Source: a virus
IMG/VR virus record: IMGVR_UViG_3300011253_000870
Coordinates: 1 to 38,607 of that record
Length of the DNA: 38,607 bases
Direction: 5' to 3' (one strand)
The notes below the pieces were generated by a model. It searched no databases. It was given only the letters and a program-made list of their open reading frames with translations, and was not told where the DNA came from. The position numbers and the translations under genes were made by a program. Positions 3,272 through 16,311 of this stretch are shown here, one piece after another. Within the stretch, counting starts at the first letter, position 1, and every line of letters begins with the position of its first letter.

Positions 3272-3281
3272 ATTAATTACC

Positions 3282-3311
3282 CCTATACCTATACTTGTTC
3301 ATTATTGTCAA
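3282..3311 (-). promoter_or_regulatory. Promoter of the terminase/structural operon
   Basis: Read on the minus strand: TTGACA (3306-3311), an 18-base spacer and TATAGG (3282-3287), 11 bases before the terS start. Spacer and flanks are shared with a second site at 7915-7944: 28 of 32 bases from TTGACA onward agree, and both are preceded by GTTTTATT. Conservation of the spacer, not only of the hexamers, suggests an activator site or a dedicated phage promoter class. Confidence 0.65.
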
Positions 3312-3339
3312 ATAAAACATATATATATGAAGGATATTA

Positions 3340-3395
3340 GCATATTATAATATTGTAATATACAGAAACACTAATAATAACGGAGACTTAAAAAA
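3340..3395 (+). promoter_or_regulatory. Possible promoter/leader of the lysis cassette
   Basis: This AT-rich stretch holds a perfect 12-bp palindrome, ATATTATAATAT (3342-3353), that contains a TATAAT -10-like hexamer (3346-3351). I see no -35 hexamer at the right distance. The plus-strand amidase gene starts at 3396 after an ACGGAG ribosome site. A -10 without a -35 could suit the phage's own sigma-like factor, but this is only inference. Confidence 0.3.
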
Positions 3396-3842
3396 ATGTT
3401 AAAAAAAGTGAAAAAACTTGTACTTCATTGCTCAGATTCTAGTGATTCTATCGATCTGGGGGTCAAAGAGATACGTCAATGGCATACGGATACACCACCA
3501 AAAGGCAACGGATGGAGCGATATTGGCTATCATTTTGTTATCAGAAGAGATGGTAGGATCGAACGTGGTAGAGCTGAGACGGTTCAAGGGGCTCATGTTA
3601 GAGGGCATAACGAGGATAGTATAGGAATCTGTTGGGTCGGTAGAAAGACAGCATCTGACAAGCAACTAATGGCAATTAAGAAGTTATTACGGGGACTTAT
3701 GGACAAATATGAGTTACAAGCCTATGATATATATGGACACACGGAGTTAGACAGCAAAAAGACATGCCCTAACTTGGATATGAACTTTGTACGGTTACAG
3801 GCACTATTTACAATCGAGGGATATAATGTTGACGAACTTTAA
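3396..3842 (+). CDS. N-acetylmuramoyl-L-alanine amidase (T7 lysozyme-like endolysin)
   Basis: The endolysin: a zinc amidase cutting the bond between N-acetylmuramic acid and L-alanine in peptidoglycan. At 148 residues it matches T7 lysozyme (about 150) and the Amidase_2 fold. The residues expected from T7 are present: zinc ligands H11 (LHCSDS), H115 (YGHTEL) and C124 (KTCPN), catalytic Y45 (GWSDIGYHF) and K122. The GAHVRGHNEDSIGICWVG stretch (65-82) is typical of the family. No signal peptide is seen, so it needs a holin for export. It opens the plus-strand cassette and overlaps the next gene by 17 bases. In T7 such an enzyme also inhibits host RNA polymerase; nothing here tests that. Confidence 0.93.
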   Translation: MLKKVKKLVLHCSDSSDSIDLGVKEIRQWHTDTPPKGNGWSDIGYHFVIRRDGRIERGRAETVQGAHVRGHNEDSIGICWVGRKTASDKQLMAIKKLLRGLMDKYELQAYDIYGHTELDSKKTCPNLDMNFVRLQALFTIEGYNVDEL

Positions 3843-4680: not shown

Positions 4681-5099
4681 TGACTAAGATATTAAATAGA
4701 AAAGGCTGGGTCGCGGTCGGGGTTTATTCTCTTATATTACTCGCGGGCGGGTTCTACGCTGGCAACCGGAACTTCTCAGAAAAGACAACAGTTGTTGAAA
4801 AGGAAAAATCCAAAGAGACAGTTGATATAGTCGAGAAGATAGTCGAAAATCCTGACGGCACTAAGACCACTTGGCGCACGCGTAAAGAAACTGTTAAGAA
4901 GGACGCATCCAAGAAGGCTGTTATCGTTAAGAAAGATAATGATTACCTAGTCGGTCTATCATATAACTTGGGTGGTGTGTTTGGTGTCCGGGAAGTTTAC
5001 ACGTTAAGTGTAGATAAGAAGGTATTCAGCAACGCATATGCTGGTATATACGCTACTAATACTGGTGAATATGGTGTAGGCATCAAGATGAGCTTCTAA
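4680..5099 (+). CDS. Membrane-anchored periplasmic protein, spanin-like candidate
   Basis: 139 residues; ATG 4680 overlaps the previous stop. One N-terminal membrane span (about residues 9-27, WVAVGVYSLILLAGGFYAG) is followed by a highly charged, Lys/Glu/Val-rich segment (33-85) that could be extended or coiled. The C-terminal part (about 87-139) alternates small and aromatic residues and ends in phenylalanine, as in beta-strands that associate with membranes. An inner-membrane anchor plus a long periplasmic rod is what a spanin needs, but no lipobox partner is seen and the fold differs from Rz. It is the last gene of the cassette and overlaps the opposite-strand gene at its stop. Confidence 0.5.
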   Translation: MTKILNRKGWVAVGVYSLILLAGGFYAGNRNFSEKTTVVEKEKSKETVDIVEKIVENPDGTKTTWRTRKETVKKDASKKAVIVKKDNDYLVGLSYNLGGVFGVREVYTLSVDKKVFSNAYAGIYATNTGEYGVGIKMSF

Positions 5100-5362
5100 T
5101 CCTCTGTGTTAGAGTTGACGGTGTAAGAATTGAGCAAATCCTCAAGGGTAGCCTTAGATATGGCTTTAGGTAAAATCGCGGCTAATTTACCGAGTTCAGC
5201 CCTTCTAATCGAAAATAGGGGCTCTTCACCTTCCTTAATTGTATAGCTCATATACGTAGGAAAGGTCTTATTCAGCTTGTTTCCGACCCTGACGTTCAAT
5301 GTTACTACATGAACCGTATCACTATCGTATGCATCTATCTGTAATTGCTTTGTTTTTATCAT
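5096..5362 (-). CDS. Hypothetical small acidic protein
   Basis: 88 residues, start coupled to the upstream gene by ATGA, preceded by GAGGG. The N-terminal half is predicted beta (KQLQIDAYDSDTVHVVTLNVRVG); the C-terminal half is helical and acidic. No motif is recognised. It is the second gene of a two-gene minus-strand operon behind a strong promoter, so probably an early host-directed or regulatory protein; this is inference from context only. Confidence 0.6.
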   Translation of the reverse strand: MIKTKQLQIDAYDSDTVHVVTLNVRVGNKLNKTFPTYMSYTIKEGEEPLFSIRRAELGKLAAILPKAISKATLEDLLNSYTVNSNTED

Positions 5363-5634
5363 TTTATTACCCTCATATTAGCTTCGCGGAAATGGTCATG
5401 GTAGGCTGTTTTGACCGCAGCACTGTTTCTGTCAAGATAAGCCCTGACCGTATTTGAGTCCATCGGGTGCAATCCATCTTCATCTGTGTAACTCTCGAAG
5501 ATATCAGCTATCTCAATAACTAAATCCTCATCTTCACCGGCTTCTAATACCTTTAGGACCGATATAGCTACCAGCCACATCATCTCTGGATCATCCGCAT
5601 TTCTTATTAGTTTATCCCAATCAAATGGTTCCAT
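5359..5634 (-). CDS. Hypothetical acidic helical protein
   Basis: 91 residues from ATG 5634, chosen because AGGAGGA lies at ideal spacing and the promoter at 5654-5682 would place the start of transcription just upstream; a longer frame back to 5685 would overlap that promoter. The protein is helical and very acidic (LEAGEDEDLVIEIADIFESY), which can indicate a DNA mimic or protein binder, but no family is recognised. Confidence 0.6.
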   Translation of the reverse strand: MEPFDWDKLIRNADDPEMMWLVAISVLKVLEAGEDEDLVIEIADIFESYTDEDGLHPMDSNTVRAYLDRNSAAVKTAYHDHFREANMRVIK

Positions 5635-5653
5635 ATTTCCTCCTAGTACATCC

Positions 5654-5682
5654 ATTATAGCAATAAAACCGGTTAAAGTCAA
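5654..5682 (-). promoter_or_regulatory. Sigma70-type promoter
   Basis: On the minus strand: TTGACT (5677-5682), a 17-base spacer and TATAAT (5654-5659), followed 6-13 bases later by the AGGAGGA ribosome site of the gene starting at 5634. Eleven of twelve hexamer bases are consensus. The spacer contains the palindrome AACCGGTT (5667-5674), a possible operator. Confidence 0.85.
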
Positions 5683-5689
5683 CACTTAT

Positions 5690-5958
5690 TTTAAATAATG
5701 TGCGAAGCACTGTCGCGTTGCAGCTTGCCTGCTACAAGACGTACTTAACCTTATCTTAACCTAATATATTCAATAGTGACGTATATTGGCACTTGTGTCT
5801 AATAAATAGACAGTATCACTAGTATTTACATTTAGCTATATATGTATTATCTGATAGTTGTGACACAAAATGTGGCCGCGATTGTATCATTTTATGGTCT
5901 AATATAGACAGACCTGTGCTTAAATGCCAGTCCCTAACGGGATCAACTGGTTGCACAT
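5690..5958 (-). ncRNA. Candidate structured noncoding RNA 1 (about 270 nt)
   Basis: This stretch has no credible reading frame but is preceded by a perfect consensus promoter on the minus strand. Several helices can be drawn: 5927-5930 with 5947-5950 enclosing TCCC/GGGA (5931-5934/5939-5942); GGTCT/AGACC (5896-5900/5910-5914); TAGTGA/TCACTA (5774-5779/5816-5821) enclosing TGTCTA/TAGACA (5796-5801/5807-5812); and GTGC/GCAC (5700-5703/5707-5710). The last one abuts TGTCGCGTT, an element repeated in the second gene-free region. The downstream operon has its own promoter, so this RNA is not needed merely as its leader. No known RNA family is recognised. Confidence 0.45.
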
Positions 5959-5964
5959 TAATTA

Positions 5965-5993
5965 ATTATAACACTATTCTGGTATGTTGTCAA
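5965..5993 (-). promoter_or_regulatory. Perfect sigma70 promoter facing a gene-free region
   Basis: On the minus strand: TTGACA (5988-5993), 17 bases, TATAAT (5965-5970), all twelve hexamer bases consensus. Transcription would start near 5958 and read about 320 bases before the first plausible start codon at 5634. Confidence 0.85.
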
Positions 5994-6276
5994 GTACTAT
6001 TTGCACTTTTTTGGGATTTTTTTGATTTTTGGCTCATATTGGTCAGATTATTTGATTTTTTTTGCTAAAACCCAGGAGGACCCTACCAATACCAGCGACT
6101 TCAGAGGGTACACACCTACAATACACCTGTCAAGTGCTTTGTATCAATGTAGTACAAACAATATTATTTGCTTGACACGGGGAAAATAAAACGATCTCAT
6201 TAGTTATTGTAACAGTTGTTCTAATCCCCCATAGTGCATCAGTTCCACTTGTAGGAACCCTTATCATATACCCTCT
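5994..6276. other. Gene-free stretch with T-rich runs
   Basis: I find no gene here. The plus strand has T-rich tracts at 6006-6062. A hairpin GTTCC/GGAAC (6242-6246/6254-6258) lies just downstream of the minus-strand operon that ends at 6277 and may help end its transcript, although no clean T-run follows. A TTGACA at 6172-6177 (plus) lacks a good -10. Confidence 0.5.
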
Positions 6277-6516
6277 CTAGTTCCACGTCTTGTCTAGCTT
6301 CTTACATACCCATGCTAACTTCTTCTTATATACCTTATGTTGTTGTAGGTAGTATGCTACATGCTCATCCCTAGCCCCTGCTATTAGCTCCTGCATGTTA
6401 TCTAGTACTATGATATAGTCTTCCCTTGCCTTAGTATATATCTCATGCATAGTATGCTCCATATCTACCCCTTGGTCTAATGGACCCCTATATATAGCCC
6501 CTCTATATACGCTCAT
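6277..6516 (-). CDS. Hypothetical small protein
   Basis: 79 residues. The N-terminus (SVYRGAIYRGPLDQGVD) is unstructured in appearance; residues about 20-79 look helical and charged and end in a basic lysine-rich helix. No family is recognised. It is the last gene of the five-gene minus-strand operon, and its ATG overlaps the preceding stop by one base. Confidence 0.6.
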   Translation of the reverse strand: MSVYRGAIYRGPLDQGVDMEHTMHEIYTKAREDYIIVLDNMQELIAGARDEHVAYYLQQHKVYKKKLAWVCKKLDKTWN

Positions 6517-6662
6517 TATAGCCCCCTTGATTGTATAGCTCTAACTACTTCCTGTATCGGGGCATCCTGTATAGCACCTAATACATAACCGGTATATGCG
6601 ATTGTAGCAAAAATAAACACCGTAAATAACAACATTTCTATATATAAGCTTTTATCTTTCAT
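6516..6662 (-). CDS. Tiny membrane protein
   Basis: 48 residues. ATG 6662 overlaps the previous stop (ATGA) and follows GGAGGAATT; the stop shares one base with the next ATG, so gene order and coupling support it strongly. After MKDKSLYIE comes one membrane span (about residues 10-30, MLLFTVFIFATIAYTGYVLGA), then a short cytoplasmic or periplasmic helix. Function unknown. Confidence 0.65.
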   Translation of the reverse strand: MKDKSLYIEMLLFTVFIFATIAYTGYVLGAIQDAPIQEVVRAIQSRGL

Positions 6663-6895
6663 AATTCCTCCATTATAGCGTTTTTACTTATAAACATGAA
6701 TAACTCTTCATTAGTAATACTATATAACACTTCCCAGTCATTGTCAAGTACATTTACATGTAAAATATCAATATCTACTAATTTGTCTCTGTAAATCGGT
6801 CCTTTTGGAGTATCAGCTTCTAGGACTTTCTCATATTCGACTTCATACACTAAACCTACCGTAATATCGTCTAATTCTAAGATTGTATTCTTCAT
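6659..6895 (-). CDS. Hypothetical small acidic protein
   Basis: 78 residues, ATGA-coupled to its neighbours on both sides. It is acidic with alternating beta-strand patterns (LELDDITVGLVYEVEYEKV, then VDIDILHVNVLDNDWEVLY). No recognisable domain; probably a small single-domain beta protein of the early minus-strand operon. Confidence 0.6.
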   Translation of the reverse strand: MKNTILELDDITVGLVYEVEYEKVLEADTPKGPIYRDKLVDIDILHVNVLDNDWEVLYSITNEELFMFISKNAIMEEL

Positions 6896-7089
6896 AGTTT
6901 ACCTACCTTGATAAGTGTATATTCTGCTGTAGTATCTCTTAGCATATCTTCGATCTGAAAATATTGAAGCTTCTCACAATCAATACCGAAGTCAGAAATC
7001 CATATATCCGTATCAGGTTGATTCAAATAGATAGATTCGTAACCGAACCCATCATCTTGCCAGAACGCTTGCAATAACCAAACATCCAT
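6892..7089 (-). CDS. Hypothetical small acidic protein
   Basis: 65 residues, rich in aromatic residues and aspartate (MDVWLLQAFWQDDGFGYES). The stop and start codons overlap those of both neighbours. Its C-terminus (TLIKVGKL) resembles that of the upstream gene (VVIKVGA), and the two genes share the 12-base string CTACCTTGATAA at their ends (plus-strand reading). No family match. Confidence 0.6.
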   Translation of the reverse strand: MDVWLLQAFWQDDGFGYESIYLNQPDTDIWISDFGIDCEKLQYFQIEDMLRDTTAEYTLIKVGKL

Positions 7090-7274
7090 TATGCACCTAC
7101 CTTGATAACTACTTGATTTAACTTCCTTTTCTGTGTATTTAATGATCCAGTCGCTTTAACTAACATATGGAAGTGATATCTGAAACCGTCAAAATCACCC
7201 TTATCATTAGCTACATTCATACTCTCTTTATGAAATTCTACTCTGTCTTGGTAATGCTCTATTAATGTTTTCAT
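7089..7274 (-). CDS. Hypothetical small basic protein
   Basis: 61 residues, the first gene of the minus-strand operon 7274-6277. It follows AAGGAGATAAG and a consensus promoter at 7299-7327. It is helical with several histidines (HYQDRVEFHKESMN, FRYHFHMLVK) and a basic C-terminus. No family is recognised. Confidence 0.65.
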   Translation of the reverse strand: MKTLIEHYQDRVEFHKESMNVANDKGDFDGFRYHFHMLVKATGSLNTQKRKLNQVVIKVGA

Positions 7275-7298
7275 CTTATCTCCTTAGTGTCTGTCTTA

Positions 7299-7327
7299 AT
7301 TATACTAACTTATCGGTTATATGTCAA
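7299..7327 (-). promoter_or_regulatory. Perfect sigma70 promoter of the 7274-6277 operon
   Basis: On the minus strand: TTGACA (7322-7327), 17 bases, TATAAT (7299-7304), all consensus, about 25 bases before the first start codon. A host-type promoter of this quality suggests immediate-early expression. Confidence 0.9.
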
Positions 7328-7329
7328 GA

Positions 7330-7905
7330 AACTTTAGTAAATAATGAAAAAACAACAACTGAGTAATATCAATAGGTTAGAGCTAGTTCCTAAGCTTTGT
7401 ATATAGAATATACCTTTAGGCGGATAACGACCTTTTATCCAATTAAGAGTATAATGATACGGTCTATCTTATTCCCTCTATATATAATGCACTTTCGTGC
7501 TGTCGCGTTAACGAACCATTTGGTGAGTTGACAAGACGAATCCTTTGTTGAGAGCCCTAAGGGGCTTAACTATACAGGCTCGATTTGTTTGTATAACTGA
7601 TTGAACTGCACGAGGTATTAAGTTGTTTTAAATAATAGGAAGCCAAACTCTCTAGAACAGAAAGTAGCTGAAGTCGAAGGTAGTTAGGTTACGCGCCTAA
7701 TCGCTGGATTAACAAGGGTTCTATATATACAGCTAACTCAATATAAAACATTTTAACAGTGTTGCTATGGTAAGGCCGCAATAGGCTCTTTTCTGTTTCT
7801 TAGTCTACCAGTTCACTGGGCAGGGTTCTCACCTTTATCGCCTAGTCTCTCATTAATCGTGCTCTGGGTCTCTTCTATGGCTGATTATTCCCGAACACTT
7901 AAGGG
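7330..7905 (-). ncRNA. Candidate large structured noncoding RNA 2 (about 575 nt)
   Basis: There is no credible reading frame over this length, in a genome where genes otherwise overlap. A promoter shared with the terminase operon (7915-7944) points into it on the minus strand. Possible helices: CCAG/CTGG (7808-7811/7816-7819); AACAGAAA with TTTCTGTT (7656-7663/7790-7797, long range); AGTTAG with CTAACT (7682-7687/7733-7738) enclosing TAATC/GATTA (7698-7702/7707-7711); TATACA/TGTATA (7571-7576/7590-7595); AGCCC/GGGCT (7553-7557/7562-7566); GCAC/GTGC (7489-7492/7497-7500), whose loop is a GNRA tetraloop (GAAA) only on the minus strand; GGATAA/TTATCC (7422-7427/7435-7440); GTATAT/ATATAC (7399-7404/7408-7413). 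On the minus strand it ends near a T-rich run (7346-7352). Length and density of helices recall large ornate phage RNAs such as GOLLD or ROOL, but I recognise no family consensus. Confidence 0.5.
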
Positions 7906-7914
7906 TTTTCTTCC

Positions 7915-7944
7915 CCTATACTTATATATGTTCATTAATGTCAA
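7915..7944 (-). promoter_or_regulatory. Promoter of candidate RNA 2, same class as the terS promoter
   Basis: On the minus strand: TTGACA (7939-7944), 18 bases, TATAGG (7915-7920). The spacer segment TAATGAACA and the start region TATAGGGG are identical to those in the terS promoter at 3282-3311. Confidence 0.65.
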
Positions 7945-7952
7945 AATAAAAC

Positions 7953-7980
7953 GTGTAAACATAGTGTAAGTTATGTGTAA
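7953..7980 (+). repeat. Three GTGTAA direct repeats with 11-bp period
   Basis: GTGTAA occurs at 7953, 7964 and 7975, exactly one helical turn apart, so three protein copies would bind one face of the DNA. The array lies between divergent promoters. A very A-rich tract (8001-8031) follows. It could be iterons of a replication origin with an unwinding element, or an operator for both transcription units. Confidence 0.55.
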
Positions 7981-8065
7981 GTATTGCTAAAAAGCAAACG
8001 ATATCAATAAGATAAAAATAATTAAAAAAAAGATCACACCGCCACTCAGTTGTAATACGGTCCAT

Positions 8066-8128
8066 TTGACAAAATAATGAAATAAAAGCTAAAGTATTGT
8101 TGATATTTGTCGATAAGTTTGTTAGAAT
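8066..8128 (+). promoter_or_regulatory. Tandem sigma70 promoters of the early operon
   Basis: Proximal promoter: TTGATA (8100-8105), 17 bases, TAGAAT (8123-8128), ten of twelve consensus bases, with the AAGGAGG ribosome site starting at 8142. Upstream lies a perfect TTGACA (8066-8071) with a weaker TAAAGT (8090-8095) after 18 bases. Together they drive the plus-strand early genes and face the 7915-7944 promoter. Confidence 0.75.
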
Positions 8129-8153
8129 GTATATAACAGTTAAGGAGGATATA

Positions 8154-8357
8154 ATGAATAAATGGATATCAGTGGGAACTATAAGAATTGACGAACACGG
8201 TGAACGAAGGTTTGAATTAGATGATTCAACAGCAATCCAGTTTAAGGTAGAACTACCACCGGACTTTAATGGTTATCAATCGACTCAAGAAGAGAAAGAC
8301 GCTGCCGATATATTCTATATAAACAAGTGGTTAAGAATTCACTTAGGGAGAAAGTAG
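8154..8357 (+). CDS. Small protein with W-x-x-x-GT-x-R N-terminal module
   Basis: 67 residues from ATG 8154, chosen because AAGGAGG lies at ideal distance; an upstream TTG frame would overlap the promoter. The N-terminus NKWISVGTIRIDEHGERRFELD is a beta-hairpin-like module that recurs in the protein encoded at 11366-11647 (KKWNGLGTLRVAKNGKRKLVLD). The rest is polar and ends in a basic helix (INKWLRIHLGRK). First gene of the early operon. Function unknown; the small beta module with basic residues could bind nucleic acid. Confidence 0.7.
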   Translation: MNKWISVGTIRIDEHGERRFELDDSTAIQFKVELPPDFNGYQSTQEEKDAADIFYINKWLRIHLGRK

Positions 8358-8833
8358 TGAAAGATGTGGATAAGATAATCAATAGTATAGCTAAGAAGTA
8401 CGCCAAGTATGCTGAGAAGAAAGGTATTATGATTGGAGACTTGAAGCAAGTAGGGTACACCGGTTATCTTGAGGGTATCGATCAGTTCGACCCTGAACGC
8501 GGTATGTCTGAAAATAGCTACATATACTTTTTAGTGCGGAATAAAGTTGACAGATTCGTTAATAAGGGTATATACTGTAATTACATCATAGCCGGTGAAG
8601 AGACTAACGCTAACGAGATAGAAGACTTTAGCATAAACTTAGAAGCGGCGGTTTACCTTAAGCAAGTAAATAAAAGAATAAAAAAGCTTGACAAACGTAG
8701 TAGATCGGTGTTACTATATAAAGTAGAGGGATATAGTGATAGAGAAGTTGGATTGAAGATTGGGTGTTCCAAAAGGAATGCCACAGTAATTAAGAACAAG
8801 AGTATTAAACTAATAACGTCCGTGGAGGACTAA
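8357..8833 (+). CDS. RNA polymerase sigma factor-like protein
   Basis: 158 residues from GTG 8357, which overlaps the previous stop (TAGTG) and follows AGGGAG; a longer GTG start at 8327 has no good ribosome site. Residues about 28-66 match sigma-70 region 2: DLKQVGYTGYLEGIDQFDPERG corresponds to the core-binding 2.1-2.2 helices, and SYIYFLVRNKVDRF to 2.3-2.4. Residues 103-152 match region 4, with the helix-turn-helix YSDREVGLKIGCSKRNATVIK. Such two-region factors direct RNA polymerase to alternative promoters. As the second early gene it is well placed to activate later phage promoters. Region 3 and a region 1.1 are missing, as in small or ECF-like sigma factors. Confidence 0.8.
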   Translation: MKDVDKIINSIAKKYAKYAEKKGIMIGDLKQVGYTGYLEGIDQFDPERGMSENSYIYFLVRNKVDRFVNKGIYCNYIIAGEETNANEIEDFSINLEAAVYLKQVNKRIKKLDKRSRSVLLYKVEGYSDREVGLKIGCSKRNATVIKNKSIKLITSVED

Positions 8834-8847
8834 CAAAGGAGAATAAC

Positions 8848-9030
8848 ATGGGAACAACAATACTACTAGTAGCAGGTTTTCTGTTTTCAATCGACACAGC
8901 TGTACAAATTGATAACGCGATTATTGAAGACTCAAGACTAGACCGTATCGAAAAGGTACTAAAGCTAGAAGAGTGTGTGGTTAAGCCACAAATTGAAAGA
9001 GAAGAGTCTCAAGGTTTAGACTGCGAGTAA
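8848..9030 (+). CDS. Small protein with N-terminal membrane segment
   Basis: 60 residues after AAAGGAG. Residues 3-20 are hydrophobic (TTILLVAGFLFSIDTAVQ), either a signal sequence or a membrane anchor. The remainder is charged with two cysteines (C43 and C59). It is the last gene before an intrinsic terminator. No family is recognised. Confidence 0.6.
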   Translation: MGTTILLVAGFLFSIDTAVQIDNAIIEDSRLDRIEKVLKLEECVVKPQIEREESQGLDCE

Positions 9031-9035
9031 TTAAT

Positions 9036-9059
9036 AGGGGGAGCAATCCCCTTGTTTTT
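9036..9059 (+). terminator. Intrinsic terminator/attenuator behind the sigma-like operon
   Basis: Stem AGGGG (9036-9040), a 7-base loop, CCCCT (9048-9052), then TGTTTTT. The next gene starts only 14 bases downstream with its own AAGGAGG site, so this acts inside the early gene block rather than at its end. Confidence 0.75.
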
Positions 9060-9072
9060 AAAGGAGGAACGT

Positions 9073-9327
9073 ATGAAAGTTGTGGTAGACAATACCAAAG
9101 AAGAAGATCTATTAGTTAGAACATGGATCATAGGCGAGAATTCATCGGGCGCGCTACGGTTAATCATAACCAGCGAAGACAGTATAATAGGCGCAACGGA
9201 CTTTATGAGTAGACAAGACATTATGGACTACTTAGCGGTTCAATTAAATGTAGAGATTAAAGATTTAGAGGCAAGACAATTTGAAGACACTAACCCGTTG
9301 TATTTAGTGGAGGATGAAAATGATTAA
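9073..9327 (+). CDS. Hypothetical small acidic protein
   Basis: 84 residues from ATG 9073 after AAAGGAGGA; an upstream TTG would lie in the terminator. The N-terminal half is beta-like (MKVVVDNTKEEDLLVRTWII ... ALRLIITSED), the C-terminal part acidic and helical. No domain is recognised. Confidence 0.65.
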   Translation: MKVVVDNTKEEDLLVRTWIIGENSSGALRLIITSEDSIIGATDFMSRQDIMDYLAVQLNVEIKDLEARQFEDTNPLYLVEDEND

Positions 9328-9691
9328 GAAGATAGAGAGGCCAGACTGGACACACGAAGAATATAGCAGGGTAAAATTAAAGCGCTGGTTCGACAAGCAC
9401 ATAGAGCCAATCAATGCGATGCTTGAGGGTGCGGTTGAGGTTTATGCAAATGTGCCGAATGATAACAAGCCCGTTGTTTGGGTCCTGAATGGTAATTTAC
9501 CCGACGAAACCCACAAAGCCCTACTCATAAACATTGAGCCAATCAAAAAACAGACAAGAGAAGAGAGGCTTGAGGATGTATTGAGGCGCATTGTCGAAAA
9601 CCATGAAGATGAGCCACATATAACAGAGCTTTATTTGGGTGATTTGAAAGATGCCAAGCAAGCACTAGAGGGGGGCGAAAATGGAGATTAA
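9320..9691 (+). CDS. Hypothetical protein
   Basis: 123 residues from ATG 9320 (GTGGAGG at good spacing), overlapping the previous stop. Features: a charged, tryptophan-containing N-terminus (IERPDWTHEEYSRVKLKRWF), a predicted beta-strand (PVVWVLNG) and an acidic helical C-terminus. No catalytic pattern is recognised; transcribed with the early genes. Confidence 0.65.
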   Translation: MIKKIERPDWTHEEYSRVKLKRWFDKHIEPINAMLEGAVEVYANVPNDNKPVVWVLNGNLPDETHKALLINIEPIKKQTREERLEDVLRRIVENHEDEPHITELYLGDLKDAKQALEGGENGD

Positions 9692-9788
9692 GATATCAAA
9701 CACCGGCGATATCAATATAACAGACGATGAACCGGTACTGACAGAACTAGAAGATGTAACAGAGCTACTAACGAAGGAAGAAGAATGA
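9681..9788 (+). CDS. Very small acidic protein
   Basis: 35 residues; ATG 9681 lies after AGGGGG and overlaps the previous gene, and the stop overlaps the next ATG at 9785. Composition is acidic (11 Asp/Glu) with a few beta-prone residues. It is supported only by its ribosome site and the tight coupling with both neighbours. Confidence 0.5.
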   Translation: MEIKISNTGDINITDDEPVLTELEDVTELLTKEEE

Positions 9789-10042
9789 AGGCAGAAGAAG
9801 CGAGAGAATTGGTTAAGCAATATAACGAAGAGAAGGCTCAAGAAGAGTTAAACAAGACCGTAGACAACATCAGGAAGGCTGCAACACTAGGCAAAACCGC
9901 ATACTTTACTTCATTTAAATATGAGAAAAATGTTGACAAAGTGAAAGAATTAGGGTATACTGTTAAAGTAAGAAGTAAGGTTCCTAATGAAGCAGAACAA
10001 AAGTATGAATCTTATTACGATATAACATGGGATGAGGTATGA
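9785..10042 (+). CDS. Hypothetical protein
   Basis: 85 residues, coupled to both neighbours. The first 30 residues form a charged helix (EEARELVKQYNEEKAQEEL); the rest has short strands (KTAYFTSFKYEKNVDKVKELGYTVKV) ending in YYDITWDEV. No family is recognised. The gene carries a promoter-like sequence for the following secreted-protein genes. Confidence 0.65.
   Translation: MKAEEARELVKQYNEEKAQEELNKTVDNIRKAATLGKTAYFTSFKYEKNVDKVKELGYTVKVRSKVPNEAEQKYESYYDITWDEV
9933..9961 (+). promoter_or_regulatory. Possible internal promoter for the secreted protein and subtilase
   Basis: TTGACA (9933-9938), 17 bases, TATACT (9956-9961): eleven of twelve consensus bases, 78 bases before the start of the secreted protein. 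It lies in coding sequence, so chance is possible. A second, weaker candidate (TTGACA 10132-10137, TACAGT 10155-10160) sits before the subtilase gene. Confidence 0.45.
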
Positions 10043-10335
10043 AAACTATAATACTATCACTACTAATATCAACCAGCGCATTAGCTGACACATTCTACAA
10101 AGAAGAAAAGATGGTTATTTGTAATTATGACTTGACAATTCCGTTAAAAGATGGTACAGTTAAGTTTATAGCAGTGCCACTAATAGGTAAACAAGCTTAT
10201 AAAGTTAGAGACGATTACGGACACGTACTACTAGGGGTAGATTTTAGTAAGGATTTAAAAAAGATCAATCAAGATCATTGGTACAACCACAAATTCATTG
10301 ACAACGTTGATGAATACAAATGTAAGGACATGTAA
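10039..10335 (+). CDS. Small secreted protein next to the subtilase
   Basis: 98 residues with a clear signal peptide: basic start, hydrophobic core MKTIILSLLISTSALA, and an AxA-type cleavage site after residue 16. The mature part (about 82 residues) has two cysteines (C28, C95) that could form a disulphide, and beta-prone segments. It ends directly before the subtilisin-like gene. I know no family. Because that protease lacks a propeptide, this protein could be its chaperone or inhibitor supplied in trans; this is inference from adjacency only. Confidence 0.7.
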   Translation: MKTIILSLLISTSALADTFYKEEKMVICNYDLTIPLKDGTVKFIAVPLIGKQAYKVRDDYGHVLLGVDFSKDLKKINQDHWYNHKFIDNVDEYKCKDM

Positions 10336-11070
10336 ATGAGGGTACAAAACAAACTACTAACGCTAGGTTTGATAGCATTATCTATCTTCCTATTAGGTCT
10401 AACAGCCGAGTCTAAGACAAAGAGAGCCAAGCTATTCAAGGTAGCTATCATTGATTCGGGCTTTGGTTTCGAGACGGAGCTAAACAAGAAAGCTTTCAAG
10501 ATCTGCAAAACCGGTTCTTTTGACTTTATCTCTAACCTACCGATGGTAGGTGATGATGAATTGGGACACGGCACCTCGGTAATGGGTTTAGTAAACCGTA
10601 GAGCTAACACAAAGAACATGTGCTTCCTAGTATATAAAGTATTCGGTAGTTCACCTTATGGAGACTCGAACAATATACGAAAAGCAATGGTAGCTGCATA
10701 TAGAAACGGAGCTAAGGTTATTAATATGTCTTTAGGTGGTAATCAGCATTCTATACAAGAGCGTGAAATCATTAAGGAAATTACAGGACGCGGTGTTAAG
10801 ATATTTGTCGCAGCAGGTAATGCAAGCAAGAATCTAAACGTGACATGTAACTCTTATCCGGTATGTTATAAGAACTTAAACATGAACTTAATCCCCGTCG
10901 GTGCTACAGATGAAGATGTAGATGTTGCAAAGTACAGTAACCGAGGTGTTAAGATTAGTGTATACAAGTACGGTAGAACAATAAGTGGATCACGTGGTAC
11001 ATCTTTCGCGGCACCTAGAGCAACGGGTGACTATATTAAATCGCTTAACCTAGATAAAAAGAGTAAGTAA
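10336..11070 (+). CDS. Subtilisin-like serine protease (S8), secreted or membrane-tethered
   Basis: 244 residues with the full S8 triad in order: D40 (VAIIDSG), H78 (GHGTSVMG), the oxyanion asparagine N162 (VAAGN) and S223 (GTSFAAP). An N-terminal hydrophobic segment (residues 6-24) is a signal peptide or anchor. The catalytic domain begins at about residue 33, so the usual inhibitor I9 propeptide of about 70 residues is missing. It is a minimal subtilase, since most are 270 residues or more. Cysteines (C57, C96, C171, C177) could form disulphides outside the cytoplasm. The gene follows the secreted-protein gene directly and its stop overlaps the next ATG. Possible roles: cleaving host envelope proteins, superinfection exclusion or release. 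Confidence 0.9.
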   Translation: MRVQNKLLTLGLIALSIFLLGLTAESKTKRAKLFKVAIIDSGFGFETELNKKAFKICKTGSFDFISNLPMVGDDELGHGTSVMGLVNRRANTKNMCFLVYKVFGSSPYGDSNNIRKAMVAAYRNGAKVINMSLGGNQHSIQEREIIKEITGRGVKIFVAAGNASKNLNVTCNSYPVCYKNLNMNLIPVGATDEDVDVAKYSNRGVKISVYKYGRTISGSRGTSFAAPRATGDYIKSLNLDKKSK

Positions 11071-11351
11071 TGGATAACGTCTTCAAGAGAATAGAGGAAT
11101 TAATTAACGGAGTTGCAGAGCCACAAGACTCAGCGGAGTATGCCCTAGTGAAAGCTTATACTAGAGGTGAAGGTGGAGAACCCCTGATTAATATTTGTAT
11201 CGACATGAAGGAAGAAATGCAGTACTACAAAGAGGCGGAGTTTGAGATGTTTATTTTAGGCTTTGCAATGGGACAGAAAGACTACCTAGATAAAGTAGGA
11301 GGACTCGACCTAACAAAATTTATGAAAGACGATAACGATACAACACACTAA
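11070..11351 (+). CDS. Hypothetical acidic protein
   Basis: 93 residues, ATG overlapping the subtilase stop. Helical and acidic throughout, with patterns such as DMKEEMQYYKEAEFEMFILGFAMGQKDYLDK. No family is recognised. Coupling to the protease gene suggests joint expression. Confidence 0.6.
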   Translation: MDNVFKRIEELINGVAEPQDSAEYALVKAYTRGEGGEPLINICIDMKEEMQYYKEAEFEMFILGFAMGQKDYLDKVGGLDLTKFMKDDNDTTH

Positions 11352-11365
11352 CACAGGAGAAAAGA

Positions 11366-11647
11366 ATGAGTAAAAAATGGAACGGACTAGGAACACTACG
11401 AGTAGCAAAGAACGGTAAGCGTAAGCTGGTACTAGATTCAAGAATAGCAACAATCACATATACAGATGGTTCTGTATACACGCCAGACAAGTTTAGAACG
11501 GCAATTTGTCGTGATGCAGTTGAGTCTGCACAAAACTTAGCAGAGCGCGGTATCATCGATGCTGACGAACTGGCTAAGAAATTAGCATTTATCGATGAGA
11601 AAAGCATCAAGCTAGATGTCGTAATTCCTCCCACTGACGATAACTAG
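11366..11647 (+). CDS. Second protein with the W-x-x-x-GT-x-R module
   Basis: 93 residues after AGGAGAAAAG. The N-terminus (KKWNGLGTLRVAKNGKRKLVLD) is clearly like that of the first early gene at 8154. A polar helical region follows (residues about 45-75), then a short beta-strand (IKLDVVIPP). It is the last gene before a strong terminator. The basic hairpin module may bind nucleic acid; no known family is recognised. Confidence 0.65.
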   Translation: MSKKWNGLGTLRVAKNGKRKLVLDSRIATITYTDGSVYTPDKFRTAICRDAVESAQNLAERGIIDADELAKKLAFIDEKSIKLDVVIPPTDDN

Positions 11648-11659
11648 AAAGAAAACGCG

Positions 11660-11705
11660 CAACCCGTGTTAACGGTTGGGTTGATAGGCTACTATCTTTT
11701 TTTTT
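11660..11705 (+). terminator. Intrinsic terminator inside the early gene block
   Basis: A first stem CAACCC/GGGTTG (11660-11665/11678-11683) overlaps by one base a second, terminator-type stem GATAG/CTATC (11683-11687/11692-11696) followed by nine T residues. The overlap means they may compete, like an antiterminator and terminator. The ClpP-like gene starts 20 bases later and no promoter fits between. Confidence 0.8.
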
Positions 11706-11724
11706 AACTTTTAAGGAGATTAAC

Positions 11725-12267
11725 ATGAGTGCAGAATTAGCTATAAAATTGAATTCAGATCATAACATTGATGTTACCACTGGTGTTATTCACATAAGCG
11801 GTGATGTAGATGCTGACATGTACGACAAGGTAGTACAAGATATTTCTCTACTGTCTCAATTCAACCCGGATGCACTGAATAACCTAACTATATACCTGTC
11901 AACATACGGCGGTGATGTATACTTTGCATTTGCTATTTATGATTATTTGAAACTAACAACAGCTAACCTAAAGATTGTATGCAGCGGACCGGTAATGAGC
12001 GCCGGTGTATTGATACTACAGGCAGCTACGGAGCGCGTGATGATGCCTAATGCTCACCTACTTGTACACTTCGGTATGGAAGTAAACGACAACCAACAGA
12101 CTAAGCACCAACATGAGCAGTTAACTAAAGAAATTAAGAACTTATTCATTAAGAGATGTACAGCTAAGGAACAAACTATAAAGAGATGGTTCTCAAAAGA
12201 GAGCTACTTCAACACAAAGAGAGCTGTCGAGGTAGGATTAATTGACCGGGTAGTTAGTTATGAGTAA
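11725..12267 (+). CDS. ClpP-like (S14) protease
   Basis: 180 residues of the Clp/crotonase fold. The glycine-rich turn STYGGDV (59-65) matches ClpP's NSPGG. The nucleophile is S92 in GPVMSAG and the histidine H115 in AHLLVHFG. The C-terminal AVEVGLIDRVV is the ClpP ending AVEYGLVD. By hand alignment the usual acidic residue in the handle-to-C-terminal region (ERDT in E. coli ClpP) is replaced by tryptophan (KRWF), so the triad may be incomplete or rearranged. Phage ClpP-like proteins often mature proheads, but this one is encoded among early genes, far from the capsid genes and on the other strand. It follows AAGGAG and overlaps the next gene by 8 bases. Confidence 0.85.
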   Translation: MSAELAIKLNSDHNIDVTTGVIHISGDVDADMYDKVVQDISLLSQFNPDALNNLTIYLSTYGGDVYFAFAIYDYLKLTTANLKIVCSGPVMSAGVLILQAATERVMMPNAHLLVHFGMEVNDNQQTKHQHEQLTKEIKNLFIKRCTAKEQTIKRWFSKESYFNTKRAVEVGLIDRVVSYE

Positions 12268-12730
12268 GGGAAAGAAGTCATTAAAGGGCGTGATGGAGTG
12301 GAAACAAGAGTACGGTGATAAGCTCAATGAAGAAGAGACTAAATGGATCAGCCAGTTTTATCACGAATATGAAGGTGGTCAAGCTAACCAATACGATGAA
12401 CCGATACTAACGACAACCGAGCAGATCAAGGAGGCTAGAAGAAACTATAACACTCTATACAGAGACGGTTTTAATGTCTCAAAGATGTTAAACGTACAGG
12501 AGTCTATAGACGATTCACAACAAGAAGTGTATGAGTTAGCATCAGATGAAATAGACTGGGAGACGGCCTACAATCAACAAGGCGAAGTTGTAGCGGCTGA
12601 GATCATAATGATACAAACTATCAGAGATTTAGATGCCGGACAGGATAAAAAAGTTGTATTATCTAGGTTCTATGTTAAGATGAGAAGACTAAGTAAAACA
12701 GTTCAACAAGAAAAAAGGAAACAAAGATGA
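12260..12730 (+). CDS. Hypothetical helical protein
   Basis: 156 residues, start overlapping the ClpP-like stop. Highly charged and helical, acidic in the centre (EIDWETAYNQQ) and basic at the C-terminus (KMRRLSKTVQQEKRKQR). No family is recognised. Tight coupling with the ClpP-like gene makes an adaptor or substrate role imaginable, but nothing in the sequence shows it. Confidence 0.6.
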   Translation: MSKGKKSLKGVMEWKQEYGDKLNEEETKWISQFYHEYEGGQANQYDEPILTTTEQIKEARRNYNTLYRDGFNVSKMLNVQESIDDSQQEVYELASDEIDWETAYNQQGEVVAAEIIMIQTIRDLDAGQDKKVVLSRFYVKMRRLSKTVQQEKRKQR

Positions 12731-12915
12731 AAATGAAAAAGATCAGTACCGAACAATTCTTAGAAGATAAGTATAAAGAACTACAGGTTGTTAGATCTAC
12801 AATGTCTGAGTTTGAAAGACGGTTAAGTGAGATCGTAAACGCTAAAGATATAGCCGATGAGAGTAAGATCGTTTTGATAAGATCTGCATACACTAGAACA
12901 CTAGGAGAAGTGTAA
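12727..12915 (+). CDS. Hypothetical small helical protein
   Basis: 62 residues, ATGA-coupled upstream and sharing one base with the next ATG. Lysine- and glutamate-rich; probably two helices or a short coiled coil (EDKYKELQVVRSTMSEFERRL). Function unknown. Confidence 0.6.
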   Translation: MKMKKISTEQFLEDKYKELQVVRSTMSEFERRLSEIVNAKDIADESKIVLIRSAYTRTLGEV

Positions 12916-13634
12916 TGGATATTTTAAAAGACAAGAACCGTAGGATATTAGTCATTAGTGACTTACATATTCCCTATGAACACCCTGACAGTCTTGCGTA
13001 TTTAAAGGCTCTAAAGAAAGAGATTAACCCTACTAGAGTTGTCTCACTTGGAGATGAGCTTGATAAACACGCCCTTTCTTACCATGATAATAACCCAGAC
13101 CTTCCAAGTGCCGGGGATGAATTAGCCATGTCTATAGAGAGACTACAGGCTTACTACAAACTATTCCCTAAAATGGATATTGTAGAATCTAACCACGGTA
13201 GTATGGTATACAGAAAAGCATTGACTCATGGTTTACCTAAAGCTTATGTGAAGGACTACAATCAAGTATTAGGAGCACCTAAAGGGTGGGTTTGGCATGA
13301 GAACTTAATGTTGCAGTATAAAGACAATGCGCCTATATTTATAACTCACGGTATGTCAGCTAATGTTATGAAAGTTGTTGAACAGTACGGTATGAATGTA
13401 GTACAGGGTCACTTTCACTCTACATATTCGATAGGATATATGTCTAACCCAACTCATTTACTTTGGGGATTACAAGGTGGGTGTATGGTTGATCAGAAGA
13501 GTCTTGCATTTGCATACTCTAAGTTATTTAGAAAGCGTTTCATTATAGGATGCTCAGCAATCATAGACGGCCAGCCTGTATTGTATCCTATGATCCTAAA
13601 CGAAGATGGACGCTGGGTTGGAAAGTTAGTATGA
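12915..13634 (+). CDS. Metallophosphoesterase
   Basis: 239 residues with the complete calcineurin-like signature in order: D16-x-H18 (SDLH), G46-D47 (LGDELD), N93-H94 (ESNHG), H145 (ITHG) and G165-H166-x-H168 (GHFHS). This binds two metals and hydrolyses phosphomonoesters or diesters. Phage members include DNA-repair-type nucleases and nucleotide phosphatases; the substrate cannot be read here. Its neighbours (pyrophosphohydrolase, Cas4-like nuclease) suggest nucleic acid or nucleotide metabolism. The stop overlaps the next start. Confidence 0.88.
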   Translation: MDILKDKNRRILVISDLHIPYEHPDSLAYLKALKKEINPTRVVSLGDELDKHALSYHDNNPDLPSAGDELAMSIERLQAYYKLFPKMDIVESNHGSMVYRKALTHGLPKAYVKDYNQVLGAPKGWVWHENLMLQYKDNAPIFITHGMSANVMKVVEQYGMNVVQGHFHSTYSIGYMSNPTHLLWGLQGGCMVDQKSLAFAYSKLFRKRFIIGCSAIIDGQPVLYPMILNEDGRWVGKLV

Positions 13635-13795
13635 GACCTTACGGTGAGATCATGTGTGAGATGGAACCATTACTAGAAGAGATGTGTGATGATCACGAGA
13701 TGCAATTACACGAGGTATTAGGAGCCGTTGAAGCATGGGTTAAATTTCATAGACCAGACGCAATAGAGGAATTGGAGGACTACGATGAAGTATGA
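13631..13795 (+). CDS. Hypothetical small acidic protein
   Basis: 54 residues from ATG 13631 overlapping the phosphoesterase stop. Very acidic, helical, methionine-rich N-terminus (MCEMEPLLEEMCDDHEMQLH). Overlaps the next gene by 11 bases. No family is recognised. Confidence 0.6.
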   Translation: MRPYGEIMCEMEPLLEEMCDDHEMQLHEVLGAVEAWVKFHRPDAIEELEDYDEV

Positions 13796-14111
13796 AGACA
13801 GACAAGAATTAAAGAGATTATCTTTGTTAGCATTCGGGAGAACCGGTAGATACAAGACCATTATGAGGCGTGGACGTAAAGAGTTCAACACTGATGGTTC
13901 ATTTAAACACACTGTACCTATTACAGTACAAGAGATAACCGACACGATGAATTATATACTAGAACAGAGAGAAGCAAATCAACAACGTATTTTGGAGGAA
14001 TTAAATGGGAGATCGATTAACGAAGGAACAAGTGAAACAGCACGACAAGATGGTGGAACAGAGACAGTTAGAGAGAGCCCAGAAGTTAGTGAGTCAAGCG
14101 ATAAAGCATGA
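13785..14111 (+). CDS. Hypothetical protein with overprinted C-terminus
   Basis: 108 residues; ATG 13785 follows GGAGGAC. The N-terminal half is basic (KYEDRQELKRLSLLAFGRTGRYKT, IMRRGRKEF) and may bind nucleic acid. After a helix (about 46-75) the last 35 residues are low-complexity Ser/Glu/Thr, encoded in the 107 bases where this frame overlaps the pyrophosphohydrolase gene. The tail is therefore probably a by-product of the overlap. Confidence 0.6.
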   Translation: MKYEDRQELKRLSLLAFGRTGRYKTIMRRGRKEFNTDGSFKHTVPITVQEITDTMNYILEQREANQQRILEELNGRSINEGTSETARQDGGTETVRESPEVSESSDKA

Positions 14112-14406
14112 TGGTGGTGCGGATAAGCCACCGATGGGTTTAATACCACAGACTGCACTTAAAGAAGTCGCAAAGGTTCTTGATTTTGGTGCATCTAAAT
14201 ACTCAGCACATAATTGGAGAAACGGATTTGACCACAGTAGATTGTATGATGCGGTTCTAAGACACGTAGGGGCTTACATTGACGGTGAAGACTTAGATGA
14301 AGACTCTGGTTTATCTCACATAGCACACGCTACTTGTGGGTGTTTAATGTTACTAGAGCATATCCTAAAAGATATGGGTAATGACGATAGGTATAAAGGT
14401 GAGTAA
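14005..14406 (+). CDS. MazG-like dATP/dGTP pyrophosphohydrolase family protein (DUF5664)
   Basis: 133 residues; ATG 14005 is preceded by GGAGGAATTAA, a strong ribosome site inside the previous gene. The core KEVAKVLDFGASKYSAHNWRNG (about 53-74), then RLYDAVLRHVGAYIDGEDLDEDSGLSHIAHATCGCLMLLEHI (79-120), is the typical pattern of the family annotated as dATP/dGTP diphosphohydrolase. Its acidic residues and histidines bind metal in an all-helical MazG-like fold. Members clean or shape dNTP pools, and relatives act in phages with 2-aminoadenine DNA. No PurZ-like gene is seen here, so modified DNA should not be assumed. Confidence 0.8.
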   Translation: MGDRLTKEQVKQHDKMVEQRQLERAQKLVSQAIKHDGGADKPPMGLIPQTALKEVAKVLDFGASKYSAHNWRNGFDHSRLYDAVLRHVGAYIDGEDLDEDSGLSHIAHATCGCLMLLEHILKDMGNDDRYKGE

Positions 14407-15334
14407 ACTAATTAGTTATAGTGCGTGGACTAAATATCATATGTGCGGTAAGATGTATGATATCCACTATAATAAGAGACTAAGACCGAAGGGTACTACT
14501 TCAGCTCTATTGTTTGGAGTTGCTATGGATGAAGCTCTCAACGCCTTACTACTAAAGACCGGTGACCCCGTTGAGGTATTTAAAGAGAACTTTACCTATG
14601 AAATGTGTAAGGATATCAGGTGGTTCAAAGCTGACCTAGATCCAGAGATACTAACAGAAGAACAGTTAAACAAAGTTAAAGGTAAAAGCGAAGGGTATAT
14701 CACATGGGCTTGTATGAGAGTCAAAGGAAGAATGTTAATAGAACAATATATAGAGCAAATCATACCGCTCATAACGGAGGTACATGATGTCCAGCTGGAA
14801 ACCACGCGCCCCGGATTCATCGATGCCATCTTATCCCTTAGAGGCTACGGTATGGTACTCATTGACCACAAAACTAGTTCACGATACTACAAGAGAGACG
14901 CTGTTACGAGCAGTAGCCAACTGGCACTATACGCAAAACAGACCGGTCTTAGCAAAGCGGGTTTTATCGTGCTGCACAAACAAATCAATAAGAATAAAGT
15001 CAAAACCTGTAGAGACTGCGGATCTAGTACTACGACATCACACAAGACTTGCAACCAAACTGTTGCTGGTGTTAGGTGCCACGGTGGGTTTGATATACTA
15101 CTTAACCCTCAAGCCCTTATACAAGTTATTGTTGATGATATTCCGGTTGCCACGCAGGATGCTGTTGAGAAGTCGGTTCAACAAACAGAAAAGGCTATTG
15201 CCGCCGGATCGTTTCCGATGAACTTGAACCAGTGTGATAATGTATTCGGCAGAAGATGTCCTTATTATGACCTATGTAGAACAGGTGACAAGACTGGATT
15301 AGAGAAGGCTAAAGAAAGGGTCAAGAAGAAATGA
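14381..15334 (+). CDS. Cas4/RecB-like PD-(D/E)XK exonuclease with Fe-S cysteines
   Basis: 317 residues. The nuclease core is GFIDAIL (D148) and VLIDHKTSS (D162, K164), followed by a QxxxY-type helix SSQLALYAKQTG (179-190). Four cysteines match a Cas4/AddB iron-sulphur cluster: C22 (YHMCGKMY) and C285, C293, C299 (CPYYDLC). An extra zinc-ribbon-like insertion lies between them (C210, C213, C224, C233). The enzyme probably resects DNA ends for the Erf annealing protein encoded further on. The start could be ATG 14381 or GTG 14399; the second gives the family-like N-terminus VSKLISYSAW. It overlaps the previous gene. Confidence 0.85.
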   Translation: MTIGIKVSKLISYSAWTKYHMCGKMYDIHYNKRLRPKGTTSALLFGVAMDEALNALLLKTGDPVEVFKENFTYEMCKDIRWFKADLDPEILTEEQLNKVKGKSEGYITWACMRVKGRMLIEQYIEQIIPLITEVHDVQLETTRPGFIDAILSLRGYGMVLIDHKTSSRYYKRDAVTSSSQLALYAKQTGLSKAGFIVLHKQINKNKVKTCRDCGSSTTTSHKTCNQTVAGVRCHGGFDILLNPQALIQVIVDDIPVATQDAVEKSVQQTEKAIAAGSFPMNLNQCDNVFGRRCPYYDLCRTGDKTGLEKAKERVKKK

Positions 15335-15573
15335 ATACTATCGGATGGATAGGAACCCAACTACTAGCTTGGTGCGGTTTACCAGCTGTAATAGATGTAG
15401 TTCAAAGTGGAACAGCTGTGGGATACTCTATAGTCTTTTTGCTTATGTGGTTATCAGGAGAAATATTATCATTAATTTATGTACTGAATATGAAGGAGAT
15501 ACCGGTACCTATACTAGTCAACTATTTTATTAACATTTTTTTAATTTCAATCATAGTGTATTACAAGATATAG
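15331..15573 (+). CDS. Three-span membrane protein, PQ-loop/SemiSWEET-like
   Basis: 80 residues with three hydrophobic spans (about 5-20, 31-51, 57-78). The arrangement GTQLLAWCGLPAVIDVVQSGTAVGYS then LLMWLSGEILSLIYVL resembles one PQ-loop triple-helix bundle, the unit of bacterial SemiSWEET sugar transporters, with the proline of the PQ motif kept but not the glutamine. It starts on the stop of the nuclease gene. A transport role is only suggested by this resemblance; an otherwise unknown membrane protein is the alternative. Confidence 0.55.
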   Translation: MNTIGWIGTQLLAWCGLPAVIDVVQSGTAVGYSIVFLLMWLSGEILSLIYVLNMKEIPVPILVNYFINIFLISIIVYYKI

Positions 15574-15574
15574 C

Positions 15575-15603
15575 TTGACAAATGAGTTAAAGTTTGATAT
15601 AAT
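15575..15603 (+). promoter_or_regulatory. Perfect sigma70 promoter of the replication operon
   Basis: TTGACA (15575-15580), 17 bases, TATAAT (15598-15603), all twelve bases consensus, directly behind the stop codon at 15573. The Erf-like gene starts at 15627 after AAAGGAG. The promoter drives annealase, primase-helicase and polymerase. Confidence 0.92.
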
Positions 15604-15626
15604 ATAACAATAAAGGAGAATAGAAC

Positions 15627-16076
15627 ATGGATCAAAAACAACCAGAAGAAGTAAAAACAAACTTACTGCTACAGAAGATGGCAGCTGCTAAAGCAGATAT
15701 GAGTAAACTAGTCAAATCGGCTAAGAACCCATTCTTCAATTCAAACTATGCAGACTTAGGTGCCCACCTTGCGACAGTAGAACCGGCACTAACTAAACAC
15801 GGTTTAATCTTAACACAACCTACTGGTGGAAACCAATTGGGTAACTTTGTGGTATCAAGAATTAGTGATATCTCAACCGGTGAGTTTCTAGAGGCATCTA
15901 TTAAGCTTCCAGAATTAAACGATATGCAGAAGTTAGGTAGTGCCATCACTTACGCTAGACGTTACACATTAGGTTCTTTGCTTGCAATGGCAGCCGAGGA
16001 TGATGATGGAAACAGTGCTAGTGGTTTGAAAGCTAAGGGTAAGCCTAGTAAGAAGGGGTCTTCTAATGACTTCTAG
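15627..16076 (+). CDS. erf: Erf-family single-strand annealing recombinase
   Basis: 149 residues. Two family hallmarks are clear: NPFFNSNYADLGAHLATVEPALTKHGL (about 34-60) and MQKLGSAITYARRYTLGSLLAMAAEDDDGN (about 104-133). Erf proteins form rings that anneal complementary single strands, for genome circularisation or recombination in phages such as P22. The C-terminal tail is short and basic, so this is a minimal form (P22 Erf is about 205 residues). It leads the replication operon and works logically with the Cas4-like nuclease. The terminal bases overlap the next gene. Confidence 0.92.
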   Translation: MDQKQPEEVKTNLLLQKMAAAKADMSKLVKSAKNPFFNSNYADLGAHLATVEPALTKHGLILTQPTGGNQLGNFVVSRISDISTGEFLEASIKLPELNDMQKLGSAITYARRYTLGSLLAMAAEDDDGNSASGLKAKGKPSKKGSSNDF

Positions 16077-16257
16077 GGATAAGACAGAAATATTATTCGC
16101 CCTGATATTAGGGTTGGGCGGAGGGTTCGTAATAGGGTCATTCGGCTCTGCCTACGGAATATCAATACCGGTAATACTAATAAGCGCAGCACTGTTCGGG
16201 TTCTTCGCTGTCCCACCCATGGCTAAGACATTAGCTGGTAACAATGAAGAAGATTAG
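16066..16257 (+). CDS. Small two-span membrane protein
   Basis: 63 residues, ATG inside the end of the Erf gene. Two glycine-rich hydrophobic segments (about 9-30 and 33-54) are separated by a tight turn; the last residues are acidic (NNEED). The small-residue packing is like that of ring-forming or hairpin membrane proteins. Its presence in the replication operon could mean membrane attachment of replication, but the function is unknown. Confidence 0.6.
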   Translation: MTSRDKTEILFALILGLGGGFVIGSFGSAYGISIPVILISAALFGFFAVPPMAKTLAGNNEED

Positions 16258-16311
16258 TCATTATATTCAGTGGGGGTCCTTGTGGCTCCCGGTTTTCGTG
16301 GAGGAAACATC

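Follow-up and report, generated by a model that had tools for sequence, protein, structure and literature searches.

The gene-free stretch and its setting

The window, which is the whole of IMG/VR record IMGVR_UViG_3300011253_000870 (38,607 nt), carries the genes of a tailed phage (terminase, major head protein, tail fibre, primase/helicase and DNA polymerase). A second contig with identical TerL and DNA polymerase spans both window ends, which makes a complete, circularly permuted genome probable. The window has no tRNA genes (ARAGORN), and a search of genomes with TerL for the host gave only 27% identical, uninformative matches.

Positions 7275-8153 (879 nt) form the boundary between early genes read leftward (7274 down to 5096) and genes read rightward (8154 to 20169). 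The rightward block starts with a short ORF, followed by a σ70-like gene at 8357-8833. (The products of the early rightward genes include this σ70 region 2 protein, 8357-8833 on the plus strand, and a subtilase-family, Peptidase_S8, protein, 10336-11070 on the plus strand.) A first, sequence-only reading had described the region as free of genes, and it is: no gene lies in this gap, the next largest of the genome has 495 nt, and the longest ORF, at 47 aa, is as long as in shuffled sequence (50.9 +/- 13.3 aa). Decayed genes were also considered and rejected, tblastx of the stretch giving nothing credible and protein-level similarity to relatives being absent. The features of the stretch are:

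7275-8153, no strand assigned: gene-free, flanked by early gene blocks that diverge from it; no other gap in the genome is as large, and its ORFs are shuffle-like
7345-7920, minus strand: core, candidate RNA1, with gene-like G+C between A+T-rich flanks, a local but not global folding signal and no Rfam match
7393-7734, minus strand: domain with a closing 16-nt inverted repeat (7719-7734 and 7393-7408, 88% complementary), z = -2.7 on both strands
7859-7898, minus strand: hairpin of GUGUUCGGG ... CCCAGAGCAC close to the RNA1 5' end, present in two predicted folds (segment 7815-7935, z = -2.4)
7915-7944, minus strand: TTGACA-17/18-(G)TATAGG, a promoter-like site that would read into the region, with exact -35 and poor -10, like the block upstream of terS at 3311
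7953-7980, minus strand: TTACAC three times at 11-bp intervals, immediately before the -35 (the exact double site occurs only here)
7299-7327, minus strand: consensus promoter (12/12, TTGACA-17-TATAAT) of the leftward genes, pointing out of the region

The G+C content of the core (7345-7920) is 0.389, against 0.396 for the genome and 0.262 and 0.271 for the adjoining spacers. The core is thus gene-like in composition between two A+T-rich flanks, and not just A+T-rich spacer. No homologue of it was found in phage and plasmid records, nor in relatives with blastn or nhmmer. The sequence matches at 7913-8032 belong to the A+T-rich flank with the promoter; a similar block stands before terS at 3280-3408, and both end in TTTGACA-N17-GTATAGGGG, and the best of 400 shuffles scores lower than this likeness. 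Assignment of the block upstream of terS as a late promoter is uncertain (TATAGGGG in it also resembles the terS ribosome-binding site).

Folding and promoters of the core

The sequence-only reading proposed a structured RNA on the minus strand and called for a comparison of its folding with that of shuffled sequence. The region as a whole folds no better than its shuffles (z = -0.36 for the minus and -0.50 for the plus strand, with 200 shuffles each). The individual elements that had been pointed out are present but not exceptional. An 8-bp pairing over about 130 nt exists (7797 with 7663, 126 nt between), but such long-range pairings are no commoner than chance: 8 were found against 4.64 +/- 2.89 expected, and 163 of 1000 shuffles reach 8. 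The GNRA hairpin on the minus strand only, GCAC-GAAA-GUGC at 7500-7489(-), is likewise present, but 87 of 1000 shuffles have one (p~0.09). A promoter reading into the region does have an exact TTGACA as its -35 at 7944-7939(-), but its -10 is poor (GTATAG at spacing 17 or TATAGG at spacing 18, the final T missing) and the site is absent from the promoter scan list. A promoter of its own is plausible for RNA1. The TTACAC repeats upstream (25 copies of TTACAC occur in the genome, counting both strands) are possibly a regulator site. In the interval 4900-8300 there are no minus-strand terminator-like sites; RNA1 could end at ~7350, where a weak A+U hairpin is followed by U6.

Pairing count, GNRA hairpin, promoter and whole-region fold would not, by themselves, carry the claim of a structured RNA. 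What does exceed chance is the gene-like G+C of the core beside A+T-rich flanks, together with two segments that fold well locally: 7973-7854 on the minus strand (z = -3.4) and 7613-7494 (z = -3.0 on the minus and -4.0 on the plus strand). (The domain 7390-7737 has z = -2.7 on both strands, as a segment picked after the data were seen.) Moreover, the four-helix RNA of three relatives that is described below, which does show compensatory changes, has a z of only -0.24 to -1.15, so that an unremarkable z is compatible with an RNA in the window.

A second gene-free stretch and a shared two-hairpin module

The leftward genes are interrupted by a second gene-free stretch, which is also preceded and followed by promoters and which shares a short module with RNA1:

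5965-5993, minus strand: consensus promoter (12/12, TG-extended; TTGACA-17-TATAAT) before RNA2
5690-5960, minus strand: candidate RNA2, the second gene-free stretch, behind a consensus promoter; z = -3.3 and -3.1 in two runs
5654-5682, minus strand: promoter (11/12, TG-extended; from the promoter scan) directly behind RNA2, before the gene at 5634
7484-7538, minus strand: module copy 1, in RNA1 (55 nt), two stem-loops 1 nt apart, the second with a GAAA loop
5695-5741, minus strand: module copy 2, in RNA2 (47 nt), with the same flanks and with 2 of the 4 pairs of stem B swapped

The first bases of RNA2, UAAUGUGC, are predicted to pair with GCACAUUA at 5703-5696, near the next promoter. This 8-bp helix starts at the expected transcription start and closes the molecule. 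Rfam has no match to RNA2 on the minus strand (a sub-threshold snoRNA match lies on the other strand only). RNA2 is probably an RNA gene or a leader, to judge by its predicted fold and its promoter.

Both module copies (7538-7484 in RNA1 and 5741-5695 in RNA2) read CGUCUUGU ... AACGCGACAG ... CAUUAU. Stem A is formed in both by GUC.UGU with ACG.GAC and is followed by one unpaired A and then by stem B; the tip of stem A differs between the copies and is paired in each (AAC/GUU and ACC/GGU; GCAG/CUGC). Stem B is GCAC-GAAA-GUGC in RNA1 and GUGC-UUC-GCAC in RNA2, which is to say that two of its four pairs are changed on both sides. (The copies were misaligned by MAFFT, and stem B was compared by hand.) The word match alone is reached by 33 of 5000 shuffles and by 27 of 2881 random segment pairs (p~0.007-0.009); taking the occurrence of both stems in both copies into account would be expected to reduce this value. 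As to strand, two features are specific to the minus strand, namely the U-G pair of stem A (on the plus strand a mismatch, A-C) and the GAAA loop, yet the plus strand gives copy 1 a slightly better fold. When RNA2 is folded end to end, its 5' end takes up the 3' half of stem B, so that two folds compete there.

A covariance model of stem A (R2) finds no further copies in relatives. A candidate third copy in relative L008 near 1332 (GCGACA plus a hairpin), which R2 misses, is only suggestive. At 1243-1400 the same contig has a promoter (TTGACA, TACAAT) and then a potentially self-closing leader of about 110 nt before a gene; the region around this promoter is 68% alike to the second gene-free stretch of the window.

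The same place in related phages

About 25 relatives were collected through TerL searches and two more through a resolvase search that returned mostly unrelated phages; a search with the sigma factor gave none. In most relatives whose contig covers the place, with a TerL only ~50-66% identical to that of the window, 500-1600 nt beside the early gene blocks are gene-free (gap lengths are approximate, genes having been called by a simple codon-usage script). Across 13 such stretches, 120-nt windows have a mean z of -0.73 against -0.11 for coding windows of the same phages (Mann-Whitney p = 4e-7, for windows that overlap by half). The excess of structure is nearly as strong on the opposite strand, and family-wide folding thus leaves the strand open.

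Palindromes close to GTMTCANNNTGAKAC (for example GTCTCATTATGAGAC) occur in the gene-free stretches of seven relatives (L056, L058, L061, L014, L006, L157 and L158) and not in that of the window; they are likely to be an operator. The gene-free stretch of G001 (L052 1-1210 plus the contig end 41548-41917, circularity being assumed) contains a unit, a few hundred bases long, in two diverged copies.

Three relatives share a four-helix domain at the same place (L054 8395-8510, L008 549-664 and L006 381-503, all on the plus strand, which is the strand of terL and corresponds to the minus strand of the window). The domain lies behind TTGACA-17-TATAAT in L054, TTGACA-17-TACACT in L006 and a weaker promoter candidate in L008. 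RNAalifold gives 25 pairs, 11 of which have both partners exchanged, with pairing preserved, in at least one sequence, and the four helices can be drawn by hand in all three, with few mismatches at helix ends. The closing stem is GUGG/CCAC, UUGG/CCAA and GAGG/CCUC in the three relatives; hairpin P2 has a different stem in each; P3 is found in all three; and P4 is CUGGGG/CCCCAG, CUAGGU/GCCUAG and CUAG/CUAG. Linkers such as GAGAGNCGAG are conserved. Covariation of this kind in three sequences is good evidence for an RNA, short of formal proof. The RNA is absent from Rfam, and a degenerate-pattern scan of IMG/VR returned only these three contigs. (Downstream of it, L008 and L054 have UAUUCCUGUGCCCAAA in common. 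Just behind it in L008, at 899-994 on the plus strand, a 31-codon hydrophobic ORF with a good ribosome-binding site possibly encodes a membrane micropeptide.)

A covariance model of the four-helix RNA (R1) was run against the window and gave no match, whether or not filters were applied (best score 4.9 bits). RNA1 resembles it in lying at the same place and on the same strand behind a promoter-like site. The place and strand singled out by the sequence-only reading thus agree with those of the relatives' RNA, but the RNA of the window is a different one.

Comparison with known RNAs

The large phage RNAs GOLLD and ROOL have extensive conserved secondary structure with covariation, form homo-multimeric RNA cages and are expressed in infection. 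Both often, as a tendency, lie near tRNA islands (PMC12286853). RNA1 was initially likened to them as a single ornate RNA of 575 nt, and the likeness consists in being a long gene-free RNA candidate in a phage genome. That RNA1 is a diverged member of GOLLD, ROOL or HEARO, as its size and phage setting might suggest, is nevertheless very improbable: the recommended Infernal search with the models of these three families gave no match at gathering score or at E-values up to 10, and no tRNA genes are nearby. A single ornate RNA of their style is unsupported on these grounds, and also because global folding equals that of shuffles and no homologue of RNA1 was detected against which its proposed helices could be compared. 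The remark, made at the same time, that no family pattern is recognised holds for Rfam as a whole, RNA1 having no match at any E-value up to 10.

A second comparison is with the put sites of phage HK022, whose RNA antiterminates through the zinc-binding domain of the polymerase β' subunit. HK022 has two similar put sites of two stem-loops each behind its early promoters, with putR ~270 nt behind the start (PMC9378689). The window similarly has two mutually similar sites, each of two predicted stem-loops, roughly 370-430 and 220-265 nt behind the presumed starts. On the other hand, stem B of the window has only 4 bp and is much shorter, both copies are leftward whereas put has one site per direction, and each module lies inside a much longer structured RNA. 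With the stem-A model R2, HK022 25000-40751 gives no credible match, and by sequence the module is not a member of put. (Rfam also has no match in that HK022 segment and therefore cannot test put membership.)

Interpretation

The stretch is likely to be a structured RNA locus; the phage group is little known, and the relatives add a new candidate RNA. The computed support for this reading is the lack of genes, the conserved position, local structure, the relatives' covarying RNA and the module that is present twice with a compensatory stem B. The proposal of a structured minus-strand RNA locus thus survives in its position, in the family-wide local structure, in the relatives' RNA and in the repeated module, but not as one giant ornate RNA. 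More specifically, the reading places a leftward-transcribed structured RNA in the early control region of this tailed phage, as one of two such units in the genome (with the put-like leader included as one version), and it has about an even chance of being right; leftward transcription and function we infer. Against it count the shuffle-like fold of the whole region, the lack of detected RNA1 homologues, a module with only two copies and a word match of p~0.01, the near-equal excess of structure on the opposite strand, the poor -10 at 7944 and the A+U hairpin at ~7350.

Each unit would consist of a promoter, a structured gene-free RNA and then a strong promoter with genes. RNA1 and RNA2 might be long leaders of leftward transcripts: no good terminator stands behind either, and transcripts should therefore run on into the genes. 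The module might bind to polymerase during elongation, or to some factor of phage or host, and confer read-through of pauses and terminators as the HK022 put RNA does. This antitermination-like action in cis is a tentative suggestion by analogy, preferred because no good terminator closes either RNA and because the layout of the module resembles put; the 4-bp stem B, the leftward orientation of both copies and the absence of an HK022 sequence match speak against it.

Nearly as likely as action in cis, though still improbable when taken singly, is that RNA1 and RNA2 are discrete trans-acting molecules, processed or terminated, that bind a host or phage protein (as decoy, anti-defence or regulatory RNAs), with the module as a candidate binding site. 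This reading shares its RNAs with the first and departs from it in their action alone. An 8-bp helix that begins at the expected start joins the two ends of RNA2; a strong promoter of their own behind each RNA means that the genes need no RNA leader; and RNA content varies among relatives, as would be expected in an arms race. The missing intrinsic terminators argue against discrete molecules, as does the want of a known target.

Somewhat less probable is a control region acting as DNA (operators, divergent promoters, perhaps a replication origin) in which RNA structure is incidental. It would account for divergent early promoters at both ends, the TTACAC repeats at 7953-7980, the GTMTCANNNTGAKAC palindromes in the relatives' stretch and a folding signal that is not confined to one strand. 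Against it, compensatory changes such as those of the relatives' RNA and of module stem B are expected of RNA and not of DNA sites, and the core is 575 nt long, over and above the promoter flanks. Unselected spacer or decayed genes would fit global folding and ORF lengths that equal those of shuffles and a core sequence that is unconserved among relatives. That explanation is distinctly unlikely given that long gene-free stretches are kept here in otherwise packed genomes, that protein-level similarity to relatives is lacking, and that local structure is in excess and a module is shared.

To return to the structured RNA locus, it may be, though this is speculative, that this group of phages keeps, at one fixed position of its early control region, structured RNA genes that change quickly and differ by lineage (a four-helix RNA in three relatives, and in the window two RNAs with a put-like module in common), and that these constitute a new class of phage RNA acting on the host transcription machinery or on host defence. 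Phage RNAs other than tRNAs are poorly catalogued, and if a locus keeps its place while its RNA is exchanged, that would account for the failure of similarity searches to find such RNAs. The two-hairpin module has a size that allows a direct test of antitermination.
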